The position numbers and the translations under genes were made by a program. This document shows, piece by piece, positions 5,732 through 54,842 of a stretch of 64,000 nucleotides of DNA; position 1 is the stretch's first letter; every line of letters starts with the position of its first letter. The notes under the pieces are model-generated. The model had not been told where the DNA came from. It was given only the letters and a program-made list of their open reading frames with translations, and did not search any database. Origin of the DNA: Actinomadura litoris. Lineage in GTDB: Bacteria > Actinomycetota > Actinomycetes > Streptosporangiales > Streptosporangiaceae. The stretch spans positions 186,001-250,000 of the forward strand of contig NZ_WOFH01000003.1 in the NCBI RefSeq assembly GCF_009733595.1. The letters run 5' to 3'.

Positions 5732-6619
5732 CTAGGGGCGGGGGGCGCAGACGACGCCTCCCTCTATGTCGTAGCCGGGAACGCCGGGGTTGAGGGCGGT
5801 GACTCGCCAGTCGCTCTCGCCGATGGTGTGGGGCTTGCTGGACCTCAGAGAGGCGTTCGACCTGAACGTGACACCGATGCTGCGCTCCCCGGCCGGGCAG
5901 GCCCAGAGCGGCCCCCGGTCGTTGGGATAGGAACTCTGCCACTCATTGTGCCAGTAGGTGCTGCCGTCGTAAGCGGTGGCGCAGATCGCGTAAACGTCGA
6001 TCTCGACGGTGCCGGCGTCAGTTCGAAAACCCCTCGCGCCCGCGTAGGTGATCGTGCTGGACGGGTTGGTCCACATGCTGCTGGTGGTCAGTGCCGCAGT
6101 GGGGCCCTTGGCTTCACCTCCGACGTTCACCATGTATTCGTACGGGTAATTGAAGATTGAGCAGGTCTGCCCAACGTTATCTCCGTTGGGCACGATGCCC
6201 GTCTGTTTGACGATCCGGTAGCCGGGCGACGGGGTGGCGCACATGGCGTACCAGGTCATCTCGAAGGGCGTGGGGTCGTCCTTGATGGAACGGGCCTTGA
6301 CCACCCACCCGGTGTCGGCGACGGGATAGGAGGCGGACACGGTGTGCTCGATGGGGAGTTCGAACCCGCCTCCCAGTGGCTGCTTGCCCGGAGGACAGTG
6401 GGCGATCTTGGCCTCGTAGGGCGCGACCGTCCCGGTCTCCCGCACCATTTCCAGGTCGGTCAACCGGTACGGGGCCGCCGCGCCGGTGGCCGAGGACGGG
6501 ACGGCCGAGGCCACGGACGGCGAGACACCGGTAACGGCGGCGGTGGCCATCAGGGCGAGCGCGGCGGCCACGGCACGGCTGTGCGCCAGGAGGCCGGTGT
6601 GGGAGCGTCGGGACAGCAA
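5732..6619 (-). CDS. Secreted protein with three cysteine-pair repeats, unknown function
   Basis: A 295-residue protein. The chosen start is TTG at 6619, since AGGAG lies five bases before it. It gives a clear signal peptide: RRS, hydrophobic AVAAALALMATAAV, then small residues up to about position 40. The mature part has six Cys (75, 127, 153, 213, 241, 291) falling into three similar blocks of about 55-65 residues. Each block opens near CP-G or QTC and closes with YAxCA or VVCA, which suggests three disulfide-closed beta units. CPPGKQPLGGG and CPAGERSIG recall glycine-rich repeats of secreted actinobacterial proteins. No catalytic motif is visible. The gene stands alone; the frame upstream of TTG is open but composition-driven. 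Confidence 0.7.
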   Translation of the reverse strand: MLSRRSHTGLLAHSRAVAAALALMATAAVTGVSPSVASAVPSSATGAAAPYRLTDLEMVRETGTVAPYEAKIAHCPPGKQPLGGGFELPIEHTVSASYPVADTGWVVKARSIKDDPTPFEMTWYAMCATPSPGYRIVKQTGIVPNGDNVGQTCSIFNYPYEYMVNVGGEAKGPTAALTTSSMWTNPSSTITYAGARGFRTDAGTVEIDVYAICATAYDGSTYWHNEWQSSYPNDRGPLWACPAGERSIGVTFRSNASLRSSKPHTIGESDWRVTALNPGVPGYDIEGGVVCAPRP

Positions 6620-7046
6620 AACGTCTCCTTCCCGTGAAGGCACCGCCGCTGCGCCCCGCCGTGGGGCTCCGGTGGGCGGCGAGCATCTCACCGCCTCCCC
6701 GCACCGCCAAGCCCCCCGGGACTTCCGGCCTCCACCCCCACCCCCCCGACGACGGCCCCAACCCCGGCGAACCCGCGCTGAACTGCGGGGTCTCGGGGAA
6801 CCCCGCCCTCGGACCACGAGTCCGAAACCGGCCGGGGGAGCCGAGGACGCTCGGCCTCCGGCTACAGGTTCGACCGGCACGGTCCGCCGGGGCGGGAGGG
6901 GCTCGGGTTGCTGCGGTGTCGACAGAACGAAACCGAACGGCAACCGTGCCATGGCCGTTGCGGAACGTTACGGTTTATCACGTGTTGTGCTCTCCTTGAT
7001 GAATAAGGCGGTGAACACCGCGTATCAGATCATGGGGGAGGCATTG
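6620..7046. other. 427-base gap between divergent genes, no gene seen
   Basis: The stretch must hold the promoters of the secreted repeat protein (minus) and the hydrolase-PKS pair (plus). The left half is very C-rich on the plus strand (about 6650-6860). The right end is more AT-rich, with TTTATCACGTGTTG near 6973-6986 that contains a CACGTG hexamer. No convincing -35/-10 pair, tRNA or repeat was found. Confidence 0.4.
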
Positions 7047-8012
7047 ATGGACGTTTCTTCCGCCCCTGGTGACGATGTCCGGGTCCTGTCCGTGGACGGT
7101 GTGCGATTCAACTGCCGCATTCTGTGGAATGACGATCATCCGCAGACGGTGCCCGTGGTGTACACGCATGACGCGTTCGCGCGGATGCACTTCTGTGGGC
7201 TTTCCGGGCCGATCAGCGACGTCGCCACTCTCGTCCAGGTGAATCTGCCGGGCTCCGGTGACGCGGATGACGTTCCTGTCGATCAATCACCCGATTTCCT
7301 CATCCGCGTGCTGCTTGAGGTGATGGACGAGGTGCCGCTGCCGCGCGTCAACCTCGTCGGGGGGTCCGCTACCGGTCCGTTGGCCTACCAGTTCGCCCGG
7401 CGATATCCGGAGCGGGTGCGGCGGCTCGTTCTGATCGCCGCCGTCGCCTCTGCGTCGGAGATGCGCAGCCTCCACGCGGACAAGTCCGTGTCCTGGGACG
7501 AAGGGGTGACGGAGACCCTCACGCAGTCCGACATAGACACGGTCCTGCGGCTGCTCGTGGATCACTCCTCCGGCAACCCCGTGATCGGGAGGGACGCGGT
7601 CCGAGACCGGCTGAGGGCGATGTTCGGCCACATGATGCCCGAGGAGATCGCGCGCCTCGCCCACCAATGGCAGGCGCTCGCCGCCCTCTCCACCGATTCC
7701 GGCGGCGGCGCCTATGACGGTCCCGCCCTGGTCTGCACCGGTGAGTTCGACGCCCTGACCCCTCCGGAGGCGTGTCGCGAATTCGCCGCCACCCTGGCTC
7801 CGTCGACCTTCGCGACCATCGGGAGGGCGGACCACATGGCGCACCTGGAACGTATCCACGAGGTCGCGGACCTGGTGCGCCGGTTCGTCACCGACCAGCC
7901 GCTCGACGGTCTGCCGTATCTGGCCTCGATCGAGTATTTCCTCGGCCCTCGCGGTGCCGAGACTCCAGCGACCCCGCAGGCCCCCCGGCCGCCCGTCGTC
8001 CCGGGCCCCTAG
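7047..8012 (+). CDS. Alpha/beta hydrolase coupled to the PKS (probable product-release or editing enzyme)
   Basis: A 321-residue alpha/beta hydrolase. ATG at 7047 is chosen because GGGGGAGG lies six bases upstream; the open frame extends further but without such a site. The nucleophile elbow is VGGSATG (Ser about 107), the acid probably the Asp in GEFDALTP, and the His that of GRADHMAHLE, which is the usual order. The C-terminus is a Pro-rich tail. Only eight bases separate it from the PKS start, and the PKS ribosome site AGGAG overlaps its stop codon, so both are made together. The PKS lacks a thioesterase domain, so this enzyme may hydrolyse the finished or stalled chain in trans. That role is inference; the hydrolase fold is clear. 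Confidence 0.85.
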   Translation: MDVSSAPGDDVRVLSVDGVRFNCRILWNDDHPQTVPVVYTHDAFARMHFCGLSGPISDVATLVQVNLPGSGDADDVPVDQSPDFLIRVLLEVMDEVPLPRVNLVGGSATGPLAYQFARRYPERVRRLVLIAAVASASEMRSLHADKSVSWDEGVTETLTQSDIDTVLRLLVDHSSGNPVIGRDAVRDRLRAMFGHMMPEEIARLAHQWQALAALSTDSGGGAYDGPALVCTGEFDALTPPEACREFAATLAPSTFATIGRADHMAHLERIHEVADLVRRFVTDQPLDGLPYLASIEYFLGPRGAETPATPQAPRPPVVPGP

Positions 8013-8020
8013 GAGCAAAG

Positions 8021-11000
8021 ATGACCGCTGATTTCGCGGAGACACCTATATCCTCCGTCGCCATCGTCGGCGTCGGGTGCCGTTTCCCCGGGGGGATCCA
8101 GTCGCTCGACGGCCTGTGGACGGCGCTCACCGAGCAGCGGGACCTCGTCGGCGAGGTCCCACCGGATCGCTTCGACGCCGCGCAATGGGCCACCCCCGGA
8201 AGAAGGGGGGAGCGGAACGCGTGCACCGCGGCCGGCGGCTTCCTGGACGATCTGCGATCGTTCGACGCGGACTTCTTCGAGATCTCGCCGAAGGAGGCCG
8301 CCCAGATCGACCCGCAGCAGAGGCTCCTGCTGGAATGCGCCGTGGAGGCGTTCGACGACGCCGGGATCGACCCCGCCGGGCTGCGGGGCAGCGAGGTGGC
8401 CGTGGTCGCCGGTGCGTCCCTGCACGACTACGAGGTCCTCCAGACGCGCAGGGTTCCGGCCACGCCCTATTCGATGAGCGGGATAGCGGCGTGCAATCTC
8501 GCCAATCGCATCTCTTATTTCCTCGACCTGCGCGGGCCCTCGCACACCGTGGACACGGCCTGTTCGTCGTCGCTGCTCGCGGTGCACCAGGCATGCATGG
8601 CGGTGCGGTCCGGCCGCAGCCCGCTGGCGCTGGCGGGCGGCGTGAACGTCCTGCTGTCACCGCATCCCTACCTGGGGTTCTCGCAGGCGTCCATGCTCTC
8701 GCCCACGGGCAGGTGCCGCCCGTTCTCCGCCCGCGCCGACGGGTACGTGCGCGCGGAGGGGGCCGCGGTGGTGCTGCTCAAGCCGCTGCGGACGGCGGTG
8801 CGCGACGGTGACCGGGTGCTGGGCGTGATCCTGGCGAGTGAGGCCAACGACGACGGCCGCACCCGGGGCCTGACGCTGCCGAGTTCCCGCGCGCAGGCCG
8901 CCTTGCTGGAGCGGGTGTACACGCAGGCGGGCGTGGCGCCCGAAGAGGTGGCCTACGTCGAGGCGCACGGCACCGGCACGGCGGCCGGGGATCCGGCCGA
9001 GTGCGAGGCCCTGGGCGAGGTGCTGGGGCGGCGTCGAGGCGGGCGGCCGCTCCCGATCGGGTCGGTCAAGTCCAACCTGGGGCATCTGGAACCCGCGTCG
9101 GGGATGGCGGGGCTGTGCAAGGCGATCACGGTACTGCGGTCGGGGCGGATCCCGGCGACACTGCACGCCGAGGTGCTCAACGAGCACATCGACTTCGCCG
9201 GTCTGGGGCTGGAGCCGGTCACCTCGCCCCGGCCGCTGCCCACCGGCGGCCGTCGCGTCGTCGGTGTCAGTTCCTTCGGGTTCGGCGGCGCCAACGTCCA
9301 CGTCGTGGTGGCGCCCCCGCCGGAGGACGGGCACGCGCGGGTGTGCGAGGCGGGCCCGCTTCCCGTGCTGGTCTCGGCTCGCACCCCGTTGGCTCTGAAG
9401 AACGCGGCGGAGCGCTGGGCGGAGCACCTGGAGCAAGCGGACGAGAAAGACTTCTACGACATCTCCTACACTTCCTGCCGCCGCCGCGCGCTGCACGAGC
9501 ACCGGATGGCCGTGCTGGCCGACGACCCGCACGAGGCCGCGGCGGGTCTGCGTTCGCTGGCCCGGGGACGGCCCACCCCGCGCGCCGCGTCGGCGGCGGC
9601 CGTGCCGGGCGGCCGGGTCGCCTTCGTCTTCAGCGGCAACGCCTCCCAGTGGATGGGGATGGGCGGTGCGCTGCTGGCCACTGATCCGGCGTTCGAGGCC
9701 GAGGTCCAGGCGGTCGACGAGGTGCTGTCCGGCCTGCTCGGCTGGTCGGTCCGCGAGGAGCTGGCCGTCCCCGCCGACGCGGCGCGATGGGCGCGGACGG
9801 AGGTGGCGCAACCGCTGCTGTTCGCGGTGCAGGCGGGGCTCGCGGCGGCGCTCGCGGCGCGCGGGGTGCGGCCGTCGGCCGTCACCGGGCACAGCGTCGG
9901 CGAAGTGGCCGCCGCCTACCGCGCGGGGGCGCTGACCCGCGAGGCGGCGTGCCGGGTGGTCGCCGAGCGCAGCCGGGCGCAGGCGCCGACGGCGGGCCTC
10001 GGCCGGATGGCGGCGGCGGGCCTGAGCCCGCGCCAGGCCGAGCGGTGGATCGCCGACCAGGGCTACCTCGACCGCATCTGGATCGCGGGGCTGAACGCCG
10101 CGCGGGATGTGACGCTGACCGGGAACCTGCGGGAGCTGGCGGCCTTCGGCGAGCTGCTGGAGGAGCGCGGGCTGTTCTTCCGCGACCTGGATCTGGACTA
10201 CGCCTTCCACAGCCCGGTGATGGACCCGCTGCGCGAACCGCTCCACTCGGCCTTGCGCGGCCTCGCCCCCGCCGGTTGCTCGGTCCCCCTGGTGTCCACC
10301 GTGACCGGCGAGGTGATCGAGGGGACGGCGCTGGACGCCGACTACTGGTGGCGCAACGTCCGCGAGCCGGTCCGCTTCGCCGACGCCGTCCACACGCTGC
10401 TCGACACGCAGGGCTGCGACGTGCTGGTGGAGGTCGGGCCGCACCCGGTGCTCGCCGCCTACCTGCGCCGCATCCGCTCGGGACGTCCGGAGCCGGTGGC
10501 GGTCGTGCCGACGATGAGCCGCTCGTCCAGCGGCGCGCGGGCGATGGACACCGCCGTCGCGCACGTGCTGGCGGCCGGTGGGCGGATCGGCTGGGACCGG
10601 ATCCTTCCTCGACGGGGGAGGGCGGTGCCCCTTCCCGGCTATCCCTGGCAGCGCGAGCCCCACTGGAGCGGTACGCCGGACTGGTGGAGCGAGCCTCCGG
10701 AGGACCGGCCGACCGGGCACCCGCTGCTCGGTCGGCGGCAGGTCGCCCCCGTCCCGTCCTGGAACCTGGACTTCGACGCCGGACGGCTGGGATGGCCCGC
10801 CGACCACGGCGTCGGCCCCGATGCCGTGCTGCCCGCCGCCGCCTTCGCGGACATGGCCCTGTCGGCCGGGCGCCAGGTGCTGGACGGGCCGGTCGAGATC
10901 CTCGGCCTGTCCATCGAACGGGCCTTCGTCGTGCGGCCCGACGACACGAGCGCGCACGTCCGGCTGCACACCACGCTGGCGCAGGACGGCACCCTCGTCA

Positions 11001-14000
11001 TCGCCGGCAGGGACGGCGACGCCGGCGACTGGGTCGATCATGCGCGGGGACGGGTCCGGCGCCTGCTGCACGACGCCCCGGCGACATGGGAACCGCCCGA
11101 GCCGGGGTCGCTGTCCGCGCGGGAGGCCGAGCGGTTCTACACGGCCATGGCCCGTACGGGCCTGCGGCACGGCCCCGCCTTCCAGACCGTGACGGCGCTC
11201 CGGGCCGGCTCCGGCGCGGTGCGGGCCGCCTACAGCGCCCGGATCGACCTCGGCGAGGGCCACGCGGCCCATCCCACCGTCCTGGACGCGGCGCTACAGC
11301 TCTACTACGCGCTGTGGCCCGAGATGGCGCGGGAGCGGAAGCTGTTCCTGCCGGTTCGCGTCGAGACGATCCGCTGCCACCGCCCGATGCCCCGCGCCGG
11401 ATTCCTGCACGCGCGGCCCCTGCGCGGCGACTCCGCGGAGGCGGTGTGGGACGTCACGGTCACCGACGAGCGGGGCGAGGTCGCCCTGGAACTGCTCGGA
11501 TGCCTGGTACGCCGCTACGACGCCGGGCGTCCCGCCGAGCCGGGCCGGTTGGTCGAGGTCGTGCGGGCCGCGCCGCTGCCCTCCGAGGACCTCGCACCGA
11601 TCACCGCGAGCCCGCTGCCCGCTCCCGCCGACGTCCTCGCGGCCTGCGCCCGCGATCCGGAGACCGGCCGCGTCCACGACCACGCCCGGGTGCGCGACCG
11701 GCTGCTGGACCTGACCGCGCACTTCGCGGCGGCGGCGATCGGTGATCTGCTGGCGGAGCCGGAGACCTTCACCCTGGAGGACCTGCTGGCGGCCGGGGTG
11801 GACGCGCGGCACACCGAACTGCTGCGCGCCCTGATCCGCGCCGCGACCGAACGCGGCGTCCTGGCCCTCCACGCCCCCGGGCGCTGGCGCGTCGCCGCCG
11901 CGCCGCGTCCCGCGGAGCTTTTTCGGGAGGCGCTGGACGAGCTGCCCGGCCAGAGCACCGCCCTGCACGTGTGGGGCGTCAGCGGCCGCCACCTGGCCGA
12001 AGTGCTGCGCGGCGAGCGGGACGCCTCGGACCTGCTGCGGGCCATGCCCGACCAGCTCGCCGCGCGCTTCGCCGAGGGCTTCCCGCTGCTGCGCGCGCAC
12101 CGGCGGCTGGCCGCGCGGCTGCTGCGCGCGACGCTCGCCGACTGGCCCGCCGACCGTCCGCTGCGGGTACTGGAGACGGGCGCGGGCACCGGCACGACCA
12201 CGGCGGCCCTGCTTCCCCTGCTGCCGCCCCGGCTCAGCCGCTACACCTTCACCGACCTCACCACGGCGCGCTTCCCGCAGGCGCGGAACCGCTTCGCCGC
12301 CTGCGACTTCATCGACTACCGCACGCTGGACCCGGACGCCGACCCCGCCGAGCAGGGCTTCACCCCCGCCTCCTACGACCTGGTCATCGCCGGTCACACG
12401 CTGAGCGCCCGCCGCGACCCGGCCGCCGCGCTGCGCCGGATCGCCGACCTGCTGGCCGATCACGGGCACCTGCTCGCCCTGGAGTTCCACGCGCCGCTGG
12501 TCCCGCCGCTGTTCGAGGTGCTCGGCTCCCGGCCGCTGCCGGGCCGGGACGAATGGCCGCCGCTGCTGCACGCATGCGGCTTCACCGGAACGGTGCGGGC
12601 GGGCGATGACACCGAGCCCGCGCGCGGCGACCACTCGGTGATCCTCACCGCACGGGCGCCGCGTCCGGCGTCCGCCGCCTCCGCTCCGGACATCGACGTC
12701 CCCGGCCGGTGGCTGGTCGCCGACCTGGACGGCGGCACCCCCGTCGCCGCCGAGTTGGGCCGCGTCCTCGGCGCCGAGGCCGTGCCCGCCGACGGCGACC
12801 GCGAGCGCTGGGCGGCGCACCTCGCGCCGGGGGCGCTCGGAGTGATCCTGGTGGCGGGCGCGGCGCGCCCGGATACCGAGCAGGCGGTAGGGCACCTGGC
12901 GGTGCTGCGCGCCCTCGCCGCGCGGGCCCCCGGCGGGCTCGCCGTGTGGATCGTCACCGAGGGCGCGCAGGGCCCGCCGCTCGCCGCGTCCGGCACCGGC
13001 CTGTGGGGCGCCGCGCGGACGCTCGGCAACGAACGCCCCGACCTGAAGGTCCGCCGGGTCGCCCTCGCGGGCCCCGACCCGCACGCCCTCGCGCGGCGGC
13101 TGGCGCGCGAGCTGATGTCGGGGTCGGATGAGGACGAGGTGCTGCTCACCGGCGCGGGCCGCTTCGTGACACGGGTGCGCCCGCGCGGCGAACCGCCCGG
13201 CCCGGACCGGGTCGGCGCGGAGCCCCGCGTGCTGACCCCGCACCCCACCGGCGAGCAGCGGTTGCGGTGGCGGCCCGCGACCGCGCGCGAACCGGGCGAG
13301 GGCGAGGTCGCGGTCCGGGTCGAGGTCGCGGGGCTGAACTACCGCGACGTCCTGGTCGCCACCGGGCGCGTCCCGGCGGCCGACCCGTCCCGGCCGCTGG
13401 GCCTGGAATGCGCCGGGGTGGTCACCGCGGTGGGCGGGGGCGTGCCCACCCCGGTCCCGGGCGACCGGGTCGCGGTGCTCGCGCCCGGGTGCCTCGCCAC
13501 GCACATCACCGTCCGGGCCGACCAGGTGATCCCCGTCGCCGCCGGGCTGAGCCTCGCCGAGGCCGCCTCGATGCCGACGGTCTTCCTCACCGTCCACCAC
13601 GGCCTCGGCCACCTGGCCCGGCTCGCCGCGGGCCAGACCGTACTGGTCCACGGGGCGGCGGGCGGCGTCGGGCTGGCGGCGCTGCAGTACGCCCGCGGCG
13701 TCGGCGCCCGCGTCATCGCCACCGCCGGCACCCCCGCCAAACGCGACCTGCTGCGCCTGCTCGGCGTCGAGCACGTCCTGAACTCGCGGACGCTGGACTT
13801 CGTCCGGCAGGTCAAGGACCTCACCGGCGGCGAGGGCGTCGACGTCGTGCTGAACTCGCTGGCCGGCGAGGCCCTGACCCGGGGGCTGGAACTCCTCAAG
13901 CCCCACGGCAGGTTCGTCGAGCTGGGCAAGCAGGACATCCTCGCCGATCGGCCCCTGCCGCTCGGGCCCTTCGCCGCGAACCTGGCGTTCTTCGGCGTGG

Positions 14001-15316
14001 ACGTCTCCACGCTGTTCACCGCGCCCTCGGCGCTCACCGCCGCGCACCTGACGGCGATCACCAGGGCGATCGAGACCGGCCGGTACCGCCCCCTGCCCTA
14101 CCGGACCTTCCCCGCGCACCAGGTCGAGGAGGCCTTCGAGTGCCTGCGGCACTCCCGGCACATAGGCAAGGTCCTGATCACCTTCGGCGAGCACGTCCCG
14201 CCGCCGCCCCGGCGCGCGGCTCCGGTCCTGGACCCCGAGGCGACCTACCTGGTCGTCGGGGGTCTGGGCGGGTTCGGCGCGGCGACCGCCCGGCACCTGG
14301 CCGCGCGCGGGGCGCGCCACCTGACCCTGATCGGCAGGCGCGGCCCGGACACCGGCGAGGCGCGGGCCCTGCTCGACGACCTGCGCGGACGCGGCGCGAC
14401 GGTGCTGGCCCTGGCCGCCGACGCCACCGATCCGCGGCGCATGCGGGACGTCTTCGCGCGGATCGACGCGGAGGGCCGCCGCCTGGCGGGGGTCGTGCAC
14501 GCGGCCATGGTCCTCGACGACGCCCCGCTCACCGAGCTGACCGACGAACGCGTCCGCGCGACCCTGGCGCCCAAGACGGCCGCCGCGCACCTGCTGGACG
14601 AGCTGACCCGCGACCGGCCGCTGGACTTCTTCGTCGTCTACAGCTCGGTCGCGGCACTGGCCGGGAACCTCAAGCAGGCCGCCTACGTCGCGGCGAACCT
14701 GGAACTCGAAGCGCTCGTCCGCGACCGCCGCCGCGCCGGACTGCCCGGCCTCGCCGTGCAGTGGGGCGCCATCGGCGACGCCGGATACGTGCACCGCGCC
14801 GGACGCGCCGAGGAGATGCGGCGCCTCGGCCTCGGCGAGCTGACCGCGCAGGACGCCCTGACCGCGTTGAGCGACCTGCTCGCCGACCCCGGCGCCGGCG
14901 TCGTCGCGGTCGCTCACCTCGACGGCGACCGGCTCCGCCACCTGCTGCCGCGCCTGGACGCGCCGCGCACCGCCGCCCTGCTCAGCGCCTCGTCCGAGCA
15001 CGCCGACGACGACCGCGCCCGGCTCCGCGAAGCCCTCGCGACCGCGAGCGCCGGCGAAGCCGGGGCCGTCATGGCGGACGCGCTGACCGTCCTGCTGGCG
15101 AAGGTCCTGCAGACCGCCCCGGACCACCTCGACCGGTCCCGCCGCCTGGACCAGCTCGGCGCGGACTCCATGCTGACCGTCGAGTTCGCCGCCGAGATCC
15201 GGCGGCTGCTCGACACCGAGATCTCCGCGATGGAGATCCTCAGCCTGGGAACCGTTCCGGCCATCGCCCACCGCCTCCTCGCGCGTCCCGGGACGACCGG
15301 CGACAAGCAGCGGTGA
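8021..15316 (+). CDS. Highly reducing single-module type I PKS, KS-AT-DH-MT-ER-KR-ACP
   Basis: 2431 residues from ATG 8021 (AGGAG five bases upstream). Approximate domains: KS 12-430 with Cys181 in DTACSSS and His316/His355; AT 535-850 with GHSVGE (Ser625) and AFHS, suggesting malonyl-CoA; DH 895-1185 with His929 and Asp1089; a leader then C-methyltransferase about 1330-1560 with SAM motif VLETGAGTGTTT near 1383; a structural pseudo-KR about 1565-1735; ER 1745-2060 with HGAAGGVG; KR 2075-2280 with GGLGGFG, LDD (B-type) and catalytic YSS...Y2222..N; ACP 2347-2425 with GADS (Ser2383). All active-site residues checked are present. The domain order equals that of fungal highly reducing iterative PKSs. 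A single fully reducing methylating module with no partner PKS nearby implies iterative synthesis of a methyl-branched acyl chain; this is inference. Confidence 0.93.
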   Translation: MTADFAETPISSVAIVGVGCRFPGGIQSLDGLWTALTEQRDLVGEVPPDRFDAAQWATPGRRGERNACTAAGGFLDDLRSFDADFFEISPKEAAQIDPQQRLLLECAVEAFDDAGIDPAGLRGSEVAVVAGASLHDYEVLQTRRVPATPYSMSGIAACNLANRISYFLDLRGPSHTVDTACSSSLLAVHQACMAVRSGRSPLALAGGVNVLLSPHPYLGFSQASMLSPTGRCRPFSARADGYVRAEGAAVVLLKPLRTAVRDGDRVLGVILASEANDDGRTRGLTLPSSRAQAALLERVYTQAGVAPEEVAYVEAHGTGTAAGDPAECEALGEVLGRRRGGRPLPIGSVKSNLGHLEPASGMAGLCKAITVLRSGRIPATLHAEVLNEHIDFAGLGLEPVTSPRPLPTGGRRVVGVSSFGFGGANVHVVVAPPPEDGHARVCEAGPLPVLVSARTPLALKNAAERWAEHLEQADEKDFYDISYTSCRRRALHEHRMAVLADDPHEAAAGLRSLARGRPTPRAASAAAVPGGRVAFVFSGNASQWMGMGGALLATDPAFEAEVQAVDEVLSGLLGWSVREELAVPADAARWARTEVAQPLLFAVQAGLAAALAARGVRPSAVTGHSVGEVAAAYRAGALTREAACRVVAERSRAQAPTAGLGRMAAAGLSPRQAERWIADQGYLDRIWIAGLNAARDVTLTGNLRELAAFGELLEERGLFFRDLDLDYAFHSPVMDPLREPLHSALRGLAPAGCSVPLVSTVTGEVIEGTALDADYWWRNVREPVRFADAVHTLLDTQGCDVLVEVGPHPVLAAYLRRIRSGRPEPVAVVPTMSRSSSGARAMDTAVAHVLAAGGRIGWDRILPRRGRAVPLPGYPWQREPHWSGTPDWWSEPPEDRPTGHPLLGRRQVAPVPSWNLDFDAGRLGWPADHGVGPDAVLPAAAFADMALSAGRQVLDGPVEILGLSIERAFVVRPDDTSAHVRLHTTLAQDGTLVIAGRDGDAGDWVDHARGRVRRLLHDAPATWEPPEPGSLSAREAERFYTAMARTGLRHGPAFQTVTALRAGSGAVRAAYSARIDLGEGHAAHPTVLDAALQLYYALWPEMARERKLFLPVRVETIRCHRPMPRAGFLHARPLRGDSAEAVWDVTVTDERGEVALELLGCLVRRYDAGRPAEPGRLVEVVRAAPLPSEDLAPITASPLPAPADVLAACARDPETGRVHDHARVRDRLLDLTAHFAAAAIGDLLAEPETFTLEDLLAAGVDARHTELLRALIRAATERGVLALHAPGRWRVAAAPRPAELFREALDELPGQSTALHVWGVSGRHLAEVLRGERDASDLLRAMPDQLAARFAEGFPLLRAHRRLAARLLRATLADWPADRPLRVLETGAGTGTTTAALLPLLPPRLSRYTFTDLTTARFPQARNRFAACDFIDYRTLDPDADPAEQGFTPASYDLVIAGHTLSARRDPAAALRRIADLLADHGHLLALEFHAPLVPPLFEVLGSRPLPGRDEWPPLLHACGFTGTVRAGDDTEPARGDHSVILTARAPRPASAASAPDIDVPGRWLVADLDGGTPVAAELGRVLGAEAVPADGDRERWAAHLAPGALGVILVAGAARPDTEQAVGHLAVLRALAARAPGGLAVWIVTEGAQGPPLAASGTGLWGAARTLGNERPDLKVRRVALAGPDPHALARRLARELMSGSDEDEVLLTGAGRFVTRVRPRGEPPGPDRVGAEPRVLTPHPTGEQRLRWRPATAREPGEGEVAVRVEVAGLNYRDVLVATGRVPAADPSRPLGLECAGVVTAVGGGVPTPVPGDRVAVLAPGCLATHITVRADQVIPVAAGLSLAEAASMPTVFLTVHHGLGHLARLAAGQTVLVHGAAGGVGLAALQYARGVGARVIATAGTPAKRDLLRLLGVEHVLNSRTLDFVRQVKDLTGGEGVDVVLNSLAGEALTRGLELLKPHGRFVELGKQDILADRPLPLGPFAANLAFFGVDVSTLFTAPSALTAAHLTAITRAIETGRYRPLPYRTFPAHQVEEAFECLRHSRHIGKVLITFGEHVPPPPRRAAPVLDPEATYLVVGGLGGFGAATARHLAARGARHLTLIGRRGPDTGEARALLDDLRGRGATVLALAADATDPRRMRDVFARIDAEGRRLAGVVHAAMVLDDAPLTELTDERVRATLAPKTAAAHLLDELTRDRPLDFFVVYSSVAALAGNLKQAAYVAANLELEALVRDRRRAGLPGLAVQWGAIGDAGYVHRAGRAEEMRRLGLGELTAQDALTALSDLLADPGAGVVAVAHLDGDRLRHLLPRLDAPRTAALLSASSEHADDDRARLREALATASAGEAGAVMADALTVLLAKVLQTAPDHLDRSRRLDQLGADSMLTVEFAAEIRRLLDTEISAMEILSLGTVPAIAHRLLARPGTTGDKQR

Positions 15317-47514: not shown

Positions 47515-49704
47515 GTGGCTGCGATCCTCTACCGGGTTGGCGCCTTCTGCTTCCGGCGCCGCCGCCTGGTCTGCGGGCTCTGGGCGCTGCTCGTGGTGCT
47601 GACGATCGCCGGGGCGGCCACGCTCGCGGGCGAGACGTCCAACACCGTGACGATCCCCGGCACCGAGGCGCAGCAGACCCTCGACCGGCTGAACGAGCGC
47701 TTCCCCGAGGCGAGGGTCGGCAACGCCTCGGCCCGGGTCGTGTTCGTCGCGCCCCCCGGGCAGCGCCTTTCCGACGGGCCGAACCAGGCCGCGGTCGAGA
47801 AGGTGGTCCAGGGGATGCGCAAGGCGCCGAGGGTGAGCGCGGTCCTCGACCCGTTCCAGGCGAAGGCGCTGTCGCGCGACGGCAGGTTCGGCTACGGGCA
47901 GGCGACCTACGACGTCCCCGCCGCGGACCTGGAGAAGGAGGAGCAGGAGGCGCTCAAGGACGCCGCCGCGCCCGGCCGCGCCGCCGGGCTGACCGTCGAG
48001 TTCGGCGGCGACGCCGTCACCGAGAAGCCCGTCACCGGCGTGTTCGAGCTGATCGGCGTGCTGGTCGCGGCCGTGGTGCTGGTGGTCACGCTCGGCTCGA
48101 TGATCGCCGCCGGGCTGCCGCTGGTGATGGCGATCCTCGGCGTCGGCATCGGGATGAGCGGCGTCGCGATCGCCTCCGGCATGACCGACCTGAACGTCAA
48201 CACCGGCGTGCTGGCGCTGATGCTCGGCCTCGCGGTCGGCATCGACTACACGCTGCTGATCGTGTCGCGGTTCCGGCACGAGGTGGCCGAGCGCCCGCCC
48301 GAGGAGGCGGCGGCGCTCGCGGTCGGCACCGCCGGGTCCGCGGTCGTGTTCGCCGGGCTCACCGTCATGATCGCGCTGGCCGGGCTGTCGGTCGTCGGCA
48401 TCCCGGTGCTGACCGCGATGGGCCTCGCCGCCGCCGGGACCGTCGCCGTCGCGGTGCTGCTCGCGCTGACCCTGCTCCCGGCGCTGCTCGGCTTCGCCGC
48501 GCGCCGCATCGCGGCGGCCAGGCGCGGGCGGGTCAAGCCCGGGGCGGTCCCGCACGGGGAGCGGTGGGCGCGGTTCGTCATCCGGCGGCGGATCCCCGTC
48601 CTGCTGGTGGCGCTGGTGGGCCTCGGCATCGCCGCGATCCCGGCCGCCGACCTGCGGCTCGGCCTGCCCGACGACTCGATGCTGCCCGCCGACTCCACCC
48701 AGCGCAAGGCGTTCGAGCTGGTCAGCGAGGGCTTCGGCCCCGGCTTCAACGGCCCCCTGGTCGTCGTCGTGGACGGCGGACGCGGCGGCGGCGCCGCGGC
48801 GGCGGGCCAGGTCGCCGCGACCATCGGCCGCATGGACGGCGTCGCCGCCGTCACCCCGCCGACCCCGAACCGCGACGGCGGCATCGCGCTGCTGACGGTG
48901 TTCCCGAAGACCGGGGCGACCGAGCAGGCCACGACCGACCTCGTCCACCGGATCCGCGACCGGCGCGGCGAAGTGCGCGCGGCGACCGGCGCCTCGATCG
49001 CCGTGACCGGGCTGACCGCCGTCAACATCGACTTCTCCAAGAAGCTCAACGACGCGCTGCTGCCCTACCTCGGCGTCGTCGTGGGGCTGACGTTCCTGCT
49101 GCTGATGCTGGTGTTCCGGTCGCTGATCGTCCCGGTGAAGGCCGCGCTCGGCTTCCTGCTCAGCGTCGCGGCGACGTTCGGCGCGGTCGTCGCGGTGTTC
49201 CAGTGGGGCTGGCTGTCGTCGGTGTTCGGCCTGGACGCGACGGGCCCGACCGCCAGCCTGCTGCCGATCGCGCTGATCGGCATCCTGTTCGGCCTCGCGA
49301 TGGACTACGAGGTGTTCATCGTCGCGCGGATGCGGGAGGAGCACGTCCACGGCACCGCCCCCGACGAGGCCGTCGCGACCGCGTTCCGGCACAACGCCCG
49401 GGTGGTCACCGCCGCCGCGATCATCATGATCAGCGTGTTCGCCGGGTTCCTGTTCTCCACCGAGCAGCTCAGCCGGTCGATCGGCTTCGCGCTGGCCTTC
49501 GGCGTCCTCGCCGACGCGCTGGTCGTGCGCATGACGATCGTGCCGGTGGTGATGTCGCTGTTCGGACGGGCCGCCTGGTGGCTGCCCGGCTGGCTGGAGC
49601 GGATCCTGCCCGCCGTCGACGTCGACGGCGAGCGGCTGGCCGAGCGCCGCGACCCGCCGGCCGGCCGACGCTCGGAGCCGGACGTCGCCGCCCCCGCCGG
49701 CTGA
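47515..49704 (+). CDS. MMPL-family (RND) transporter
   Basis: 729 residues from GTG 47515 (GGAAGGG upstream). Two MMPL units: each has one leading span, an outer domain and a block of about five spans. Span 1 is CGLWALLVVLTIAGAATLA; the first block has GLAVGIDYTLLIVSRFRHE and the second LIGILFGLAMDYEVFIVARMREEHVHG, the family Asp-Tyr proton-relay motifs. MMPL proteins export lipids or hydrophobic metabolites using the proton gradient. Two TetR-type operators lie directly upstream, and the same operator precedes a TetR gene 5.5 kb away, so it is probably derepressed by a small-molecule ligand, perhaps the cluster product. Confidence 0.94.
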   Translation: MAAILYRVGAFCFRRRRLVCGLWALLVVLTIAGAATLAGETSNTVTIPGTEAQQTLDRLNERFPEARVGNASARVVFVAPPGQRLSDGPNQAAVEKVVQGMRKAPRVSAVLDPFQAKALSRDGRFGYGQATYDVPAADLEKEEQEALKDAAAPGRAAGLTVEFGGDAVTEKPVTGVFELIGVLVAAVVLVVTLGSMIAAGLPLVMAILGVGIGMSGVAIASGMTDLNVNTGVLALMLGLAVGIDYTLLIVSRFRHEVAERPPEEAAALAVGTAGSAVVFAGLTVMIALAGLSVVGIPVLTAMGLAAAGTVAVAVLLALTLLPALLGFAARRIAAARRGRVKPGAVPHGERWARFVIRRRIPVLLVALVGLGIAAIPAADLRLGLPDDSMLPADSTQRKAFELVSEGFGPGFNGPLVVVVDGGRGGGAAAAGQVAATIGRMDGVAAVTPPTPNRDGGIALLTVFPKTGATEQATTDLVHRIRDRRGEVRAATGASIAVTGLTAVNIDFSKKLNDALLPYLGVVVGLTFLLLMLVFRSLIVPVKAALGFLLSVAATFGAVVAVFQWGWLSSVFGLDATGPTASLLPIALIGILFGLAMDYEVFIVARMREEHVHGTAPDEAVATAFRHNARVVTAAAIIMISVFAGFLFSTEQLSRSIGFALAFGVLADALVVRMTIVPVVMSLFGRAAWWLPGWLERILPAVDVDGERLAERRDPPAGRRSEPDVAAPAG

Positions 49705-49815: not shown

Positions 49816-52635
49816 TCAGGAGCCGTACCGCTCGGAGAGGGCGAGGCTCGCCTCGGGCGGGATCGCGGACGGCAGGTCCGACCGGCGGCTCAGACGCAGC
49901 TTGCGGTAGACGCGGGTCAGGTGCTGCTCGACGGTGCTGACCGTGATGAACAGCTTCGCCGCGATCTGCCGGTTGGTGTAGCCGTCGGCGGCGAGCGCGG
50001 CGACCCGCAGCTCGGCGTTGCTGAGGTCGTCGACGCCGGGCCCGGCCACCGCGGCGGGGACGCCCTCGGGGCCGCCCCTGGAACCGGCGCCCGACCCGGC
50101 CTCCGCACGCCCCTCGGCCACCGCGCGTCCCTCGGTGGCCGCGCGCGCCGCCGGGGCGAGCGCGAACGGCGGGCGGCCCCGCCACTGCGCGCCCGACGCC
50201 TCGGCGAGCCGGTCGGCGCGGCGCGCCGTCCGGCGGGCGGTGCCGGGCTCGCCCAGGCCGTGCTGGACGCGGCTGAGGTCGGTGAGCGCGCGGGCCAGCT
50301 CCAGCCGGTCGTAGGAGCGCTGGAGCACCTCGACGGCCTCGAACAGCAGCGCGCGGCGGCCCCGCATGTCGCTGGTCCTGGCGAGGGCGCGCAGCGTGAT
50401 CCCGCGCGTCCGGTGGTCCCAGGACGGGATCACGGCGAGCTGCTCCTCGGCCAGCGCCCGGCCCTCGTCCCGGCGGCCCAGCTCGGCGTAGGCGTAGGCG
50501 GCCGAGGAGCGCCACGGCACGACCGCCGGGATGTCCAGCCCCCACCGGCCCATCAGCTCGCCGCACACCTGGAAGTCGCCGAGCGCGGCGTGCAGCCGTC
50601 CGGTGGACATGTGGAACCAGCCGCGCGCCTCCAGGTAGTGCAGGCCCGCGCGGGTCTGGAACATCGCCTCGGGGACGGAGGTGTCGAGCCACGCCTCGGC
50701 GCGGTCCAGGTTGCCGAGCCCGACGGTGGCCGCCACCATGCTCGCCAGCGGCAGCCCGATCCCGACGCCCCAGCTCCTGGCGGGCATGACCGTCAGCGCC
50801 CGGGACGCCTGCCGGTGCGCGGCGCGCAGGTCGCCGCGCCGCAGCTCGGTCATCGCGCCGAGGCCCGCGAGCATCGCCTCCCACACGGGGGTGCGGCGCA
50901 CCCCCGCCTCGGCGGCGAGGGACTCGCGCCAGAACTCCGCCTTGTCGAGCGAGCCGCCGTAGATCAGCGCGGCGAGCGCGGCGATGACGGGGATCAGCGC
51001 GGAGTCGTCCAGCCGCGCGCTCTGGAGCACCTGCTCGGCGCCGGTCATCAGCACGTCGACGTCGTCGGAGAGGGTGTGCACCGCCGACAGCTGCGGGGCG
51101 AGCGCCGCGCGGCCCGGGGCCGCCTCGCCCCACGCCGGGGGCCTGGTGTCGGGGTAGAGGGCCCGCAGGCGGTTCAGCGCCTGGCCGGCGGTCCGCTCGT
51201 CGTGGTGCCGCAGCTCGCCGAGCAGCTCCGCCGCGTCCTGCGGGCGGCCGTGCCACAGCAGGTAGTCGATGGCGCGGGCGCCGTGCCGGCCGGTGAGCAG
51301 CCCCCGCCGCACGGCGGTGCCGAGCTCGGGCAGGAGCCGTTCGACGCTGGAGGGGTCCAGCAGCCACTCGGCGCGCGCGATCAGCGACAGCGCGACCGCG
51401 CGCTCGCGCTCGTCGGCGCTGTGCCGCTGCGCCCGCTTGAGCAGCACCAGCGCGCGCTCCCCGTCGCCGTTGTCGAGGGCCTGCTCGGCGGTCTCGCGCA
51501 GCACCGCCACCTCCCACGGCTCGCGGGGGCCGACCCCGCACAGCAGGTGCTCGGCGACGGCGGAGGCGGGGAACCCGGCGTTGTGCAGCGCCGTCGCCGC
51601 CGAGGCGTGCAGCGCCATCCGGTCGCCCGGCGGGATGCTCTGCAGGACGGCGACCCGCGCCGCCCCGTCCCGGAACCGGGTGCCGTCGAGCAGCCCGGCG
51701 AGCGTCAGCGTCTCGGTGGCCTCGGCGACCGGATGGCGGCTCAGCCCGAGCGTCGCCGCCAGCAGGTCGGGGGACGCGGCGTCGCCCAGGATCGCGATGG
51801 CACGTGCCACGTCAAGTTCGGGCGACTCATAGCGGTAGAGGCAGCGGACGACCGCCTCCTGGAACGCCTCGCCCGGCGCCGGCGCGCTCATCCCGCGCGC
51901 GGGGTCGAGCGAGTCCTCCAGCAGGGCCTTCACCAGCAGCGGGTTGCCGCCGGTGATGCGGTGGAAGGCGCCGACGAGGCGCTGCGCGCCCGGACGGCTC
52001 GTCCGCTGCGTCAGGAGCGTTCCCACCGCGAACGGCGACAGCGGCTCCAGCCGTATGTAGCGGCAGTAGGGCTGCCGCATGACGTCGGTCTCCAGGATCG
52101 GATGCCGCCGCCGGGGGCCGAACAGCTCGGTGAACACCACCATGACGCGGTCGGAGCGCAGCCGCCGGACGAGGTAGAGCAGGCACCGCAGGGACAGGTC
52201 GTCGGCGTACTCGACGTCGTCGACGGCGATCAGGACGGGCCGGTCCTCGGCGAGCTGGTGCAGCCTGCCGAGCAGGTCGCGGACGCTGGGCGAGGCCAGG
52301 TGCGTGGTGACGTCGAGGTCGGGCGAGGACAGCGCGCGGGTGAGCGCGTGGTCGAGCGGGGACAGCTCGCGGTCGACGTCGCCGTCCGCGGACTCCACGT
52401 TGCGGAGCAGTTGGTCGAGCACGCCGAGCGGGAGGGTCTGCTCCGCGCGCGACGCCGCCGCGCTCAGCACCAGCGCGCCGGCCTCGACCGCGCGCTCGGC
52501 GAGGGCGTGCAGCAGCGCGGTCTTCCCGCTCGCGACCGGACCGCCGACGATCGCGACCCGCACCGTGCCGGTGGCGCACTCCTTGAACAGTGCGTCGAGA
52601 CTGGACAATTCTCTGTAGCGTTCCGCCAAGGTCAC
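49816..52635 (-). CDS. LAL-type (large ATP-binding LuxR) cluster regulator
   Basis: 939 residues from GTG 52635. N-terminal AAA/NTPase: Walker A VGGPVASGKTALLHAL (about 30-46), Walker B PVLIAVDDVEYAD (about 133). A long alpha-helical TPR-like middle follows (about 350-830), then a Gly/Ala/Glu-rich linker and a C-terminal LuxR helix-turn-helix, LSNAELRVAALAADGYTNRQIAAKLFITVSTVEQHLTRVYRKLRLSRRSDL (about 870-920). This is the PikD-like architecture of pathway-specific activators in macrolide and other polyketide clusters. Expected role: ATP-dependent activation of the PKS cluster. The ribosome site is weak. It converges on the MMPL gene. Confidence 0.94.
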   Translation of the reverse strand: MTLAERYRELSSLDALFKECATGTVRVAIVGGPVASGKTALLHALAERAVEAGALVLSAAASRAEQTLPLGVLDQLLRNVESADGDVDRELSPLDHALTRALSSPDLDVTTHLASPSVRDLLGRLHQLAEDRPVLIAVDDVEYADDLSLRCLLYLVRRLRSDRVMVVFTELFGPRRRHPILETDVMRQPYCRYIRLEPLSPFAVGTLLTQRTSRPGAQRLVGAFHRITGGNPLLVKALLEDSLDPARGMSAPAPGEAFQEAVVRCLYRYESPELDVARAIAILGDAASPDLLAATLGLSRHPVAEATETLTLAGLLDGTRFRDGAARVAVLQSIPPGDRMALHASAATALHNAGFPASAVAEHLLCGVGPREPWEVAVLRETAEQALDNGDGERALVLLKRAQRHSADERERAVALSLIARAEWLLDPSSVERLLPELGTAVRRGLLTGRHGARAIDYLLWHGRPQDAAELLGELRHHDERTAGQALNRLRALYPDTRPPAWGEAAPGRAALAPQLSAVHTLSDDVDVLMTGAEQVLQSARLDDSALIPVIAALAALIYGGSLDKAEFWRESLAAEAGVRRTPVWEAMLAGLGAMTELRRGDLRAAHRQASRALTVMPARSWGVGIGLPLASMVAATVGLGNLDRAEAWLDTSVPEAMFQTRAGLHYLEARGWFHMSTGRLHAALGDFQVCGELMGRWGLDIPAVVPWRSSAAYAYAELGRRDEGRALAEEQLAVIPSWDHRTRGITLRALARTSDMRGRRALLFEAVEVLQRSYDRLELARALTDLSRVQHGLGEPGTARRTARRADRLAEASGAQWRGRPPFALAPAARAATEGRAVAEGRAEAGSGAGSRGGPEGVPAAVAGPGVDDLSNAELRVAALAADGYTNRQIAAKLFITVSTVEQHLTRVYRKLRLSRRSDLPSAIPPEASLALSERYGS

Positions 52636-53062
52636 AGGTCGGCCTCGTCAATTCCAGGTGAAAGACACATGGGCACACCCGGCTTGCGACCAGGTGGGAC
52701 ACGATTCAGCGGGGCAGAAGAGGTGTTAGGGCGAAATGGTCGTGGGAGCGATGATCAATTGTCGGCCGTTGCGCACGCCAAACAAATAAGGGAGCCGGTT
52801 CATTTTCTGTTCACTCTAACCGTTGGTATGGATGGGTGGACTCCCGGGTTCGGGTCGTGGCCTGAAGTGGTCGGGGACGGTGGGCGGCCCCGCGGGCCCG
52901 GCCCGCGCGGCGCCGCGACGGGAGGACGCGGGACCGGCCCGGGACCCTCGCCGCGAACGGCGCACCCGGCGGGACCTGCGGTCATGGCGACTCCAGCGCT
53001 GCACTACGGTGTAGTGTGAACCGTGGTTCATCTTATGATAAGTCCACCGAGGACGGGCGCGC
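52636..53062. other. 427-base divergent gap between LAL and TetR genes
   Basis: Contains the TetR operator (53017-53030) near its right end. The middle (about 52780-52830) is AT-richer, with GGTTCATTTTCTGTTCAC at 52797-52814, and may hold the LAL promoter. TGATCA and CAATTG hexamers lie around 52750. No further gene was recognised; the open frame on the plus strand here has no family features. Confidence 0.5.
53017..53030. promoter_or_regulatory. TetR operator candidate upstream of the TetR gene
   Basis: TGAACCGTGGTTCA differs from the MMPL operators by one central base. It is followed after one base by CTTATG (53032-53037), exactly as at the MMPL promoter. Autorepression is expected. Confidence 0.75.
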
Positions 53063-53716
53063 ATGGAAAAAACACCGGGACTTCGGGCCGACGCCACCCG
53101 GAACCGGGCGAAGATCCTTCAGTCGGCGCGTGATCTGATCACCGCGCACGGCCCGCAGATCGGGATGGATGAGATCGCGCGCTCGGCGGGGGTGGCGGTC
53201 GGCACCCTGTACCGGCACTTCCCGACCAAGAACGCCCTGGTCAACGCGATCATGATCGAGATCGAGGCCGGGGTGGTCGCGGGCCTGGAGGAGGCGGTGG
53301 CCCGCATCGAGGGCGGCGGCAGCGCGCTGGCGGAGATCGAGTTGATGCTGCGCCGGCTTGCCGTGGACATGGCCGACGACCGCGCGCTGCGCGCCGTGGC
53401 GACCCGCATCGGGGCCTACTCGCCCGACAACGTCCGCCGGCACGCCGACGCGGCGCTCGGCCGGATGGTCGCGGCGGCGCACGCCGCCGGGGCGCTGCGT
53501 CCCGACGTCACCTCCGAGGACATCGGCCTGCTCATCGGCACGATGCCCGGCGCCGAGGTGCCCGAGCCCGCCCGCCGCCGCTGGGTGGAGCTGATCCTGC
53601 GGAGCATCGTCCCGGCCCCGGTCCAGGAGGGCTCGCCCGGCGGCTCGCCCTCCTGGACCGCCGTCCCGCCCGGCGCCGTATCGCGCCCGTGTGACGGCCG
53701 GGATCACGCGGAGTAA
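53063..53716 (+). CDS. TetR-family repressor, probable regulator of the MMPL exporter
   Basis: 217 residues, ATG at 53063. Helix-turn-helix at about 14-60: RAKILQSARDLITAHGPQIGMDEIARSAGVAVGTLYRHFPTKNALVNAI. The ligand domain follows (MIEIEAGVVAGLEEAVARIEGGG...), and the C-terminal ~25 residues after VPAPVQ are low-complexity. Its own promoter and that of the MMPL gene carry the same palindrome, which identifies the likely regulon. It converges on the SARP gene, 41 bases away. Confidence 0.94.
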   Translation: MEKTPGLRADATRNRAKILQSARDLITAHGPQIGMDEIARSAGVAVGTLYRHFPTKNALVNAIMIEIEAGVVAGLEEAVARIEGGGSALAEIELMLRRLAVDMADDRALRAVATRIGAYSPDNVRRHADAALGRMVAAAHAAGALRPDVTSEDIGLLIGTMPGAEVPEPARRRWVELILRSIVPAPVQEGSPGGSPSWTAVPPGAVSRPCDGRDHAE

Positions 53717-53757
53717 GGGGTTTCGGTCCGCGGGGCCCGGTCGCGCGGCCCAGGCCG

Positions 53758-54543
53758 TCAGACGGCGGCGCGGGCCAGCTCGGGGGCGCCGAGGAGCCGC
53801 TCGTCCCCGCGCAGGATGGACTCGTGCAGGTCGCGCAGCGAGCGGCACGGCTCCAGGCCCAGCTCCCGGTTGAGGCGCTCGCGCGCGGTGCGGTAGGCGC
53901 CGAGCGCGTCGGCCTGCCGGTCGGCGCGGTAGAGCGCCAGCATGAGCTGCCGGTAGAACGCCTCGTGCAGCGGGTGCTCCTCGGTCAGCGTGTAGAGCCG
54001 CCCGATGATCTCCCGGTGCCGGCCGAGCCACAGGTAGACGTCGATGAGCATCTCCAGGCACTCCAGCCGGAGCTCCTCCAGCCACGTGACGTAGGAGTAG
54101 ATGATCGGGCCGTCGCGCAGGTCCCCGAGCGTCGCGCCGCGCCAGAGCGCGAGCGCCCGCTCGAAGGCGGGGGCGGCCTCCTCCGGACGGCCCTGCTGGA
54201 CGGCGCACCGCCCCTGCTGGACGAGCCGCTGGAAGTCGTGGACGTCCAGCTCGTCGTCGCCGAGCCGCAGCAGGTAGCCGGGGGGACGGGTGATGATCGG
54301 GCCGGTCTCGCGGCCGGGCCGGTCGAGGAACTTGCGGAGCTGGGAGACGTACACGTGCAGGGAGGCCGTCGCCCGGCGGGGCGGGTTCTCGCCCCAGATC
54401 TCGGTCATGAGCTGGCCGGTCGTCGTCACCTGGTCCGCCCGCGCGAGCAGCACCACCAGAAGAATCTCGATCTTGCGCGCGGTGAGTGAGGACGCCCCAT
54501 CATGATCAATAACGCGTACCGGGCCGAGCATTTCGAAGCGCAT
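53758..54543 (-). CDS. SARP-family (AfsR/DnrI-type) transcriptional activator
   Basis: 261 residues, the usual small-SARP size. ATG at 54543 follows GGGGGATC. N-terminal winged helix (about 1-92): MRFEMLGPVRV, LTARKIEILLVVLLARADQVTTTGQLMTEIWGENPPRRATASLHVYVSQLRKFL. The bacterial transcriptional activation domain (about 98-245) has GDDELDVHDFQRLVQQGR and LYTLTEEHPLHEAFYRQLMLALYRADRQADALGAYRTARERLNRELGLEP. SARPs bind direct repeats just upstream of the -10 box of biosynthetic operons and recruit RNA polymerase. It is a good candidate to act at the shared TTTAGCGG promoters of this cluster. Confidence 0.95.
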   Translation of the reverse strand: MRFEMLGPVRVIDHDGASSLTARKIEILLVVLLARADQVTTTGQLMTEIWGENPPRRATASLHVYVSQLRKFLDRPGRETGPIITRPPGYLLRLGDDELDVHDFQRLVQQGRCAVQQGRPEEAAPAFERALALWRGATLGDLRDGPIIYSYVTWLEELRLECLEMLIDVYLWLGRHREIIGRLYTLTEEHPLHEAFYRQLMLALYRADRQADALGAYRTARERLNRELGLEPCRSLRDLHESILRGDERLLGAPELARAAV

Positions 54544-54567
54544 GTGATCCCCCGTGGTGTGTCATGT

Positions 54568-54591
54568 TGTGCCTTATCAGACTTTGGCACA
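54568..54591. promoter_or_regulatory. Spaced inverted repeat upstream of the SARP gene
   Basis: TGTGCC at 54568-54573 and GGCACA at 54586-54591, 12 bases apart, 25 bases upstream of the SARP start. Short arms, so a weak candidate. On the minus strand GTTTAGGG lies beyond it (around 54592-54599), faintly like the shared TTTAGCGG element. Confidence 0.3.
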
Positions 54592-54741
54592 CCCTAAACT
54601 CGCCTTCGAACCCCTACGCGGCCCCTACAGACCCCAGATCGGGCGCCCCGAGTGGTTATCGGGGATTTACTTTTCGTAATTGTGAATTCTGTTCCCGTTC
54701 CGCCGCCGGTCAGGGCGCGCCGGGCCGGGCGGCGGTAAGGG

Positions 54742-54753
54742 CGGCTTTAGCGG
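54742..54753 (+). promoter_or_regulatory. Shared promoter element, copy 3 (FAD monooxygenase)
   Basis: CGGCTTTAGCGG in the gene's direction, 11 of 12 bases equal to copy 1. It is 90 bases before ATG 54843, but only 12 bases before an in-frame ATG at 54765. The bases after it, CGGGTCCGAC, align with CGCTCTCGAC at copy 2. Confidence 0.5.
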
Positions 54754-54842
54754 CGGGTCCGACGATGGGCCGGGGCCGCCTCCGCCGTGGAGCGGCCGGA
54801 ACGTCACGCCGCCGCCGCACCAGGCGGCACGGGAGGGTGGAG

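Follow-up and report, generated by a model that had tools for sequence, protein, structure and literature searches.

The gene at 8021–15316 on the forward strand of the window (the whole 64-kb stretch of DNA analysed here) encodes a real, intact polyketide synthase (PKS) of the highly reducing (HR) type, and the alpha/beta-hydrolase gene directly upstream completes a conserved two-gene cassette. On balance we think it probable that the protein, labelled P0001, is an actinobacterial iterative highly reducing type I PKS that uses malonyl units and is released by the hydrolase, and whose embedded methyltransferase (MT) is most likely inactive and structural.

In the working that we propose, the malonyl-loading AT and the KS would carry a starter through several rounds of extension, each unit would be reduced by KR, DH and ER, fully or to differing extents, and the adjacent hydrolase would cut the finished chain off the ACP, the role that discrete thioesterases probably play for several sister PKSs. 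The MT retains its C-MT fold and SAM motif, but its catalytic His and a portion of the substrate pocket are gone; it has most likely ceased to C-methylate and would be retained as a structural element of the megasynthase, and the chain is therefore probably unbranched. The analysis shows directly which domains are present, where the KS falls, that the two genes stay together, and that the MT has lost residues yet is conserved; iteration, release by the hydrolase, the lack of methylation and the product are deduced from these.

A stand-alone PKS and its adjacent hydrolase

The features of the cassette, all on the forward strand, are as follows.

6951..8012, + strand: alpha/beta-hydrolase of up to 353 residues, start between 6951 and 7047 (Pfam Abhydrolase_1)
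8021..15316, + strand: stand-alone type I PKS, KS-AT-DH-MT-psiKR-ER-KR-ACP, 2431 residues (translation, Pfam)
8048..9316, + strand: KS domain (Pfam; Cys in DTACSSS and two His present; trees)
9617..10570, + strand: AT domain (Pfam; malonyl-type motif AFHS; GHSVGE present)
10712..11545, + strand: DH domain (Pfam; His and LDAALQ Asp present)
11918..12700, + strand: C-methyltransferase domain (catalytic His replaced by Ser1462, Glu1488 retained, loop deletion of ~12 residues after about residue 1503)
12404..12406, + strand: codon of Ser1462, at the position of the catalytic His in the CurJ, LovB and CitS C-MTs (alignment)
12728..13225, + strand: putative structural (pseudo) KR half (position, likeness to relatives)
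13253..14185, + strand: ER domain (Pfam; GAAGGVG motif)
14228..14785, + strand: KR domain (Pfam; Ser, Tyr, Asn, Lys and LDD motif in the translation)
15074..15286, + strand: ACP domain (Pfam; GADSM, carrier Ser present)

P0001 is translated from a single open frame of 2431 residues, whose ATG at 8021 is preceded by AGGAG, overlapping the stop of the upstream gene. Pfam places the KS at residues 12–383, AT at 535–847, DH at 900–1172, methyltransferase at 1384–1484, ER at 1759–2053, KR at 2074–2252 and ACP at 2354–2419, each with at least one model above cut-off, in agreement with the order KS-AT-DH-MT-ER-KR-ACP that the initial annotation had read in one protein of this length. Residues ~1570–1735, in the MT–ER interval, have no Pfam match; by their position and their likeness to relatives we infer that they form a structural (pseudo) KR half. 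Long antisense ORFs across the gene were taken as high-GC frame artefacts. The AFHS motif of the AT, assigned to malonyl-CoA in the initial annotation, is confirmed; FHS is present at this position in 94 of 100 distinct relatives, P0001 counted in. The glycine of the DH HxxxG motif is replaced by Pro in P0001 and by Gln in the ortholog from Actinokineospora pegani (L079), and the threonine of the KR TGG motif is Val in both.

The hydrolase gene lies on the same strand as the PKS gene, from which it is separated by 8 bases; in A. pegani the two genes overlap at a likely TTG start. The range given for the hydrolase start reflects the frame of the A. pegani ortholog, which opens only near 7047. 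The nucleophile Ser of GGSATG, the Asp and the His are conserved between the two hydrolases (64% identity), and the closest NCBIfam models, well short of their cut-offs, are PcaD-like. When the 16 window genes around the PKS were compared with the 19.7-kb A. pegani stretch, the hydrolase alone was matched. Downstream of the PKS lie genes for a RimJ-like GNAT, a SigE-family sigma factor, LysE, TetR and others; the GNAT, sigma factor, LysE and other neighbours were rejected as cassette parts because 15 of the 16 window genes have no match in the A. pegani stretch. ORFs without any Pfam match adjoin the cassette in both organisms (5732–6952 in the window, 12874–14520 in L079).

We regard the hydrolase as the probable off-loading enzyme for the PKS chain. 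Among seven sister loci (L080, L081, L084, L097, L111, L126 and L127), a discrete thioesterase lies directly downstream of the PKS in four, called by Pfam in L084 and L111 and by tblastn in L081 and L127, and three gave no thioesterase match. As for fungi, LovB has a discrete release enzyme, and fungal PKSs can pair with trans-hydrolases. Homologues of the hydrolase were found at E ≤ 1e-30 in 10 of 394 genomes of the class, the own genome included, the nine others being 31–39% identical. The nine stretches fetched around those homologues contained no PKS of the P0001 family, though PKS domains of other kinds occur in L177 and a weak KS match in L181.

The initial annotation had noted that no second PKS is adjacent, and indeed the next KS on the contig lies ~45.6 kb downstream (G000:C23:246871) and belongs to a modular cluster at the window's right end, with none listed upstream of the PKS on the same contig. 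As the assembly is a draft in 36 contigs, a partner PKS elsewhere is possible. Positions 56365–63924 on the reverse strand are the edge of a large modular type I PKS that continues beyond the window, the KSs of the cluster reaching ~G000:C23:291,557. Beside it, at 49816–56303, are LuxR/ATPase and BTAD regulators and an FAD hydroxylase.

Relatives of P0001 in actinobacteria

Relatives were sought with the MT–psiKR stretch as query in 298 genomes of the same family (E ≤ 1e-20). Matches were obtained in 63 of them, a count that includes the own genome and weak matches to other PKSs, and many of the weaker matches fall in other kinds of PKS; an embedded MT is thus less unusual for bacteria than the initial annotation had supposed. 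We analysed 40 regions of 14–20 kb, chosen chiefly around the strongest matches, plus 79 named loci from a one-DNA-pattern scan of species genomes (the best 80 of 163 relatives). These 119 stretches yielded 111 proteins (P0001 included) with KS, DH, MT, ER and KR, the presence of AT and ACP not being required for the count, and 100 of the proteins are distinct; frequencies among them are biased by choice, as the relatives are selected matches and the best 80 of 163. With 100 distinct such proteins in 119 stretches, the KS-AT-DH-MT-psiKR-ER-KR-ACP arrangement is a common bacterial family trait. P0001 has in common with the actinobacterial stand-alone PKSs of its clade the domain order, size, KS clade and malonyl-type AT, but 98 of the 100 distinct rows do not share its Ser1462 change. 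One clade member (L048:6550–15870) lies in an unusually long frame of ~3100–3288 residues, with possible extra domains.

The best relative among the best 80 of 163, L079 from A. pegani (NZ_WHOL01000036), is a clear ortholog with the same gene order and strand. Its identity to P0001 is 80% in the KS, 75% in the AT, 65% in the DH, 75% in the MT, 61% in the psiKR, 79% in the ER, 84% in the KR and 69% in the ACP; the next-best relatives in that set are 44–48% identical in the MT stretch. No characterized member of the clade, and no product for any member, was found in the open-access literature. Articles there on the domain string concern mostly fungi and, by their titles and abstracts, include no bacterial single-module case. 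A 2020 PNAS survey reportedly dealt with Streptomyces iterative PKSs.

The methyltransferase domain lacks its catalytic base

The SAM-binding motif that the initial annotation had seen in the MT is present (VLETGAGTGTTT; VLETGAGTG), so that the counter-argument named there, a methyltransferase without SAM-binding residues, does not apply. The further claims of that annotation, that all checked catalytic residues are present and that the chain is methylated from SAM, fare less well: the MT base His is Ser1462, a conserved pocket loop is missing as well, and the methylation claim is probably wrong for P0001. In the solved C-MTs nearest by sequence, CurJ, CalH (7dmb), LovB and CitS, the base position has HAT in common (LHAT in CurJ and LovB, VHAT in CitS), where P0001 has SAR. 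The CitS dyad is His2067–Glu2093 (PMC11579551), and its spacing of 26 fits Ser1462 and Glu1488 of P0001. At the dyad His position, 97 of the 100 distinct rows carry His, whereas P0001 and L079 carry Ser and L054 carries Tyr; the dyad Glu is kept in 99. L054, a 2509-residue frame on the reverse strand, belongs to a different branch of the clade, and its change from His to Tyr is probably a second, independent loss.

A pocket loop of ~12 residues, with an Asp and an Arg in it, is likewise missing from P0001 and L079; these two residues occur in every one of the 29 other rows of alignment A2 and, in the wider set, in 95 of the 98 others. Part of the loop is missing in L037 and L047, which keep the canonical His; only P0001 and its A. 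pegani ortholog, among the 100 distinct rows, have lost both His and loop. A conserved Gly of the MT is also gone in P0001. When near-invariant positions were defined as those kept in ≥95% of the 98 others, with the two columns of one deletion counted separately, both P0001 and L079 had lost 4 of 30 in the MT, whereas for the remaining domains counted the figure was 4 of 326 (Fisher p 0.0023). Individually, P0001 has lost four such MT positions and L079 six, and the His-keeping L067, L037, L058 and L051 have lost eight, five, four and four, respectively. Because several His-keeping relatives have thus lost equally many positions, what matters is which residues are lost and not their number.

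A precedent for loss of the base is C-MeT1 of the fungal strobilurin PKS, a canonical embedded C-MT in which the same His is replaced, by Gly where P0001 has Ser. According to PMC12828468, C-MeT1 is inactive in vitro, ITC shows no SAM binding by the construct that contains it, and another C-MT of the strobilurin PKS is functional. In contrast, P0001 keeps the SAM motif and no second MT is seen in it by Pfam. Given this precedent and the loss of catalytic His and pocket loop, no C-methylation is expected of P0001.

The methyltransferase domain remains conserved, with a predicted C-MT fold

Between P0001 and L079 the MT is 75.1% identical, compared with 76.8% for KS, AT, DH, ER and KR together. 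Among 121 pairs of comparable distance (this one included), which share ancestry, the median gap is 12.9 points, and only two, again including this one, are so tight. The ratio dN/dS for the pair, estimated by NG86 and therefore crude at high GC, is 0.365 in the MT, 0.269 in the KS, 0.394 in the AT, 0.471 in the DH, 0.447 in the psiKR, 0.331 in the ER, 0.272 in the KR and 0.595 in the ACP. We therefore rejected the idea that the MT is a decaying pseudo-domain, against which both its identity and its dN/dS argue. Its conservation fits a structural role but also an altered activity.

The AlphaFold2 model of the MT is a confident C-MT fold (mean pLDDT 89). Its fold matches are CurJ (Z 40.6), CitS (35.2), DszA (34.8) and LovB (24.3), and it also matches the MT remnant of animal FAS (Z 18–20). 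CurJ, which is cyanobacterial, is the nearest solved C-MT by sequence (E 7.3e-26) as well as by fold (rmsd 2.5 over 358 aligned residues), but its C-MT has the His and the pocket loop and sits in a modular PKS. The remnant in animal FAS is inactive, and the simplest reading is that the P0001 MT likewise has a structural role.

An alternative that we consider unlikely is an active MT with a rebuilt site, in which His1459 would be the base beside Glu1488 and the short loop would alter the intermediate that is methylated. His1459, three residues before Ser1462, matches the CitS pocket residue Asn2064 by alignment counting (PMC11579551); it is the strongest candidate should the base have moved, and could act as such, and the strong conservation between the two orthologs and the retained SAM motif, Glu and fold also speak for activity. 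However, a His at this position need not be a replacement, since six of the eight distinct rows (out of 100) that have it keep the canonical His (L037, L047, L064, L082, L100 and L108). The MT has also lost a conserved Gly and, with the pocket loop, its Asp and Arg, and in strobilurin C-MeT1 loss of the His accompanied inactivity (PMC12828468). We are similarly doubtful of the idea that the MT of P0001 and L079 has been repurposed and is actively maintained: with the base lost or moved to His1459 and the loop cut, it would not carry out ordinary alpha-methylation, and might act on another intermediate or serve in SAM/SAH sensing or chain-length gating, in a PKS paired with a dedicated hydrolase. 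An inactive, structural MT is the reading that we prefer.

The KS is neither directly fungal nor modular

In a 92-row KS tree, 63 of 64 family rows fall on one side of a branch with 100/100 support, L067 being the sole family row outside; P0001 lies inside this actinobacterial clade, where it pairs with L079 at 100/100. AU tests on a 39-row KS tree rejected the union of P0001 and L079 with the fungal LovB and PsoA (p-AU 8.8e-5) and with modular KSs (p-AU 5.7e-5). From these trees, P0001 is neither a direct relative of the fungal enzymes nor a module of a modular system. We take iteration, which the initial annotation had also thought probable, to be the likely mode because the single module is isolated, no partner is nearby and its KS belongs to a clade of stand-alone PKSs.

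The initial annotation had described a fungal HR-PKS style. As a statement about domain order this holds, fungal HR-PKSs such as LovB and PsoA having the same order, including the C-MT and a structural KR (PMC12828468); as a statement of direct kinship the label fails on the KS trees. That P0001 is a fungal-type HR-PKS by descent or transfer, iterating and methylating with SAM, we find barely credible, although its discrete hydrolase partner recalls the trans-hydrolases of fungi and a sister relationship of the whole bacterial clade to LovB and PsoA, which alone represented fungal HR-PKSs in the trees, was compatible with the data (p-AU 0.569). Recent transfer from fungi was rejected because P0001 lies deep in the actinobacterial clade and direct union with the two fungal KSs fails; in addition the MT fold is nearest to that of the bacterial modular C-MT of CurJ and much less similar to LovB, and the catalytic His is absent. 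It is very unlikely, too, that P0001 is a single extension module serving other PKS proteins. The modular cluster ~41 kb downstream, whose large PKS continues beyond the window, would be the obvious partner, but the P0001 KS is only 43–46% identical to modular KSs of the same genome and a joint clade is rejected, so that the grouping with cis-AT modular PKSs that the initial annotation had envisaged as a counter-argument was not found. Moreover, the downstream cluster has its own KS in a branch of putative loading KSs ('loading' being our label), the sampled genes between PKS and cluster are of other kinds, and tblastn found no second PKS in the 19.7-kb stretch around the A. pegani ortholog.

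Mycocerosic acid synthase (MAS) is a single-protein reducing actinobacterial PKS that uses a methylmalonyl extender and is the best PDB match for P0001 as a whole, and P0001 might, like MAS-type PKSs with MMPL exporters, be a lipid synthase for envelope lipids. We consider this quite unlikely. In its favour, five of the 40 first-fetched loci carry a member of one gene cluster near the PKS, identified as MMPL by Pfam on L037, and the second-best NCBIfam model for whole P0001 is Pks2-like, far below its cut-off. On the other side, no MMPL gene is next to P0001, the one in the window (47515–49704) being 32 kb off, and the MT of P0001 has no match in MAS. The MAS KS lies in a different branch, grouping with modular KSs (96/97, 92-row tree), though the AU test did not reject its union with the family KSs (p-AU 0.399). 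Another bacterial iterative enzyme, the predicted lagunapyrone iPKS of Streptomyces sp. MP131-18, is likened to fungal highly reductive PKSs but is without ER and C-MT, according to PMC5301196. An iterative, hydrolase-released PKS with a structural MT is the account of P0001 that we favour.

Partner genes at other loci of the clade

Homologs of OleA, OleC and OleD were found by tblastn in 34 of the 98 relatives' stretches (for example L035:2506–13945). NCBIfam assigned the examples to an OleA-like KAS III, an OleC-like beta-lactone synthetase and an OleD-like reductase, below equivalog cut-offs. This suggests that the Ole-paired PKSs make acyl chains that are joined head to head into beta-lactones or olefins. 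No report of PKSs with OleA/C/D cassettes was present among the literature matches listed, and the words polyketide and PKS are absent from PMC7158056. For P0001 itself we rejected this pathway, as neither the window nor the A. pegani stretch has a match to OleA, OleC or OleD and the OleA-like gene of the own genome (41% identity) is on another contig, C13, where weak OleC-like (29%) and OleD-like (33%) matches lie beside it.

Other loci have other neighbours. In L034 (13315–14439), L051 and L122 the gene after a clade PKS resembles thioester reductases (by a Pfam NAD_binding_4 match in L034, by tblastn in the others), which suggests reductive release to an aldehyde or alcohol. In L046 (2218–19899) two clade PKSs flank a gene that clusters with the Pfam-confirmed MMPL gene of L037 and three others.

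Discussion

In 2022 NaPDoS2 listed aromatic, PTM, enediyne and PUFA subclasses of bacterial iterative PKSs, and a class with the domain set of fungal HR-PKSs is absent from that list; further iterative PKSs are stated there to be widespread in Streptomyces (PMC9582728). The clade described here puts that domain set in many actinobacteria. The programming of fungal HR-PKSs, that is when to methylate, reduce and stop, could thereby be studied in bacterial enzymes, which may be easier to express.

Beyond P0001, we think that the size of the bacterial clade, the pairing with OleA/C/D and the conserved, base-less MT are worth passing on, and the OleA/C/D pairing is possibly a larger find than P0001 itself. 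P0001 offers a natural experiment, an embedded C-MT that is without its base and yet conserved, with which a possible structural role of such domains could be tested.
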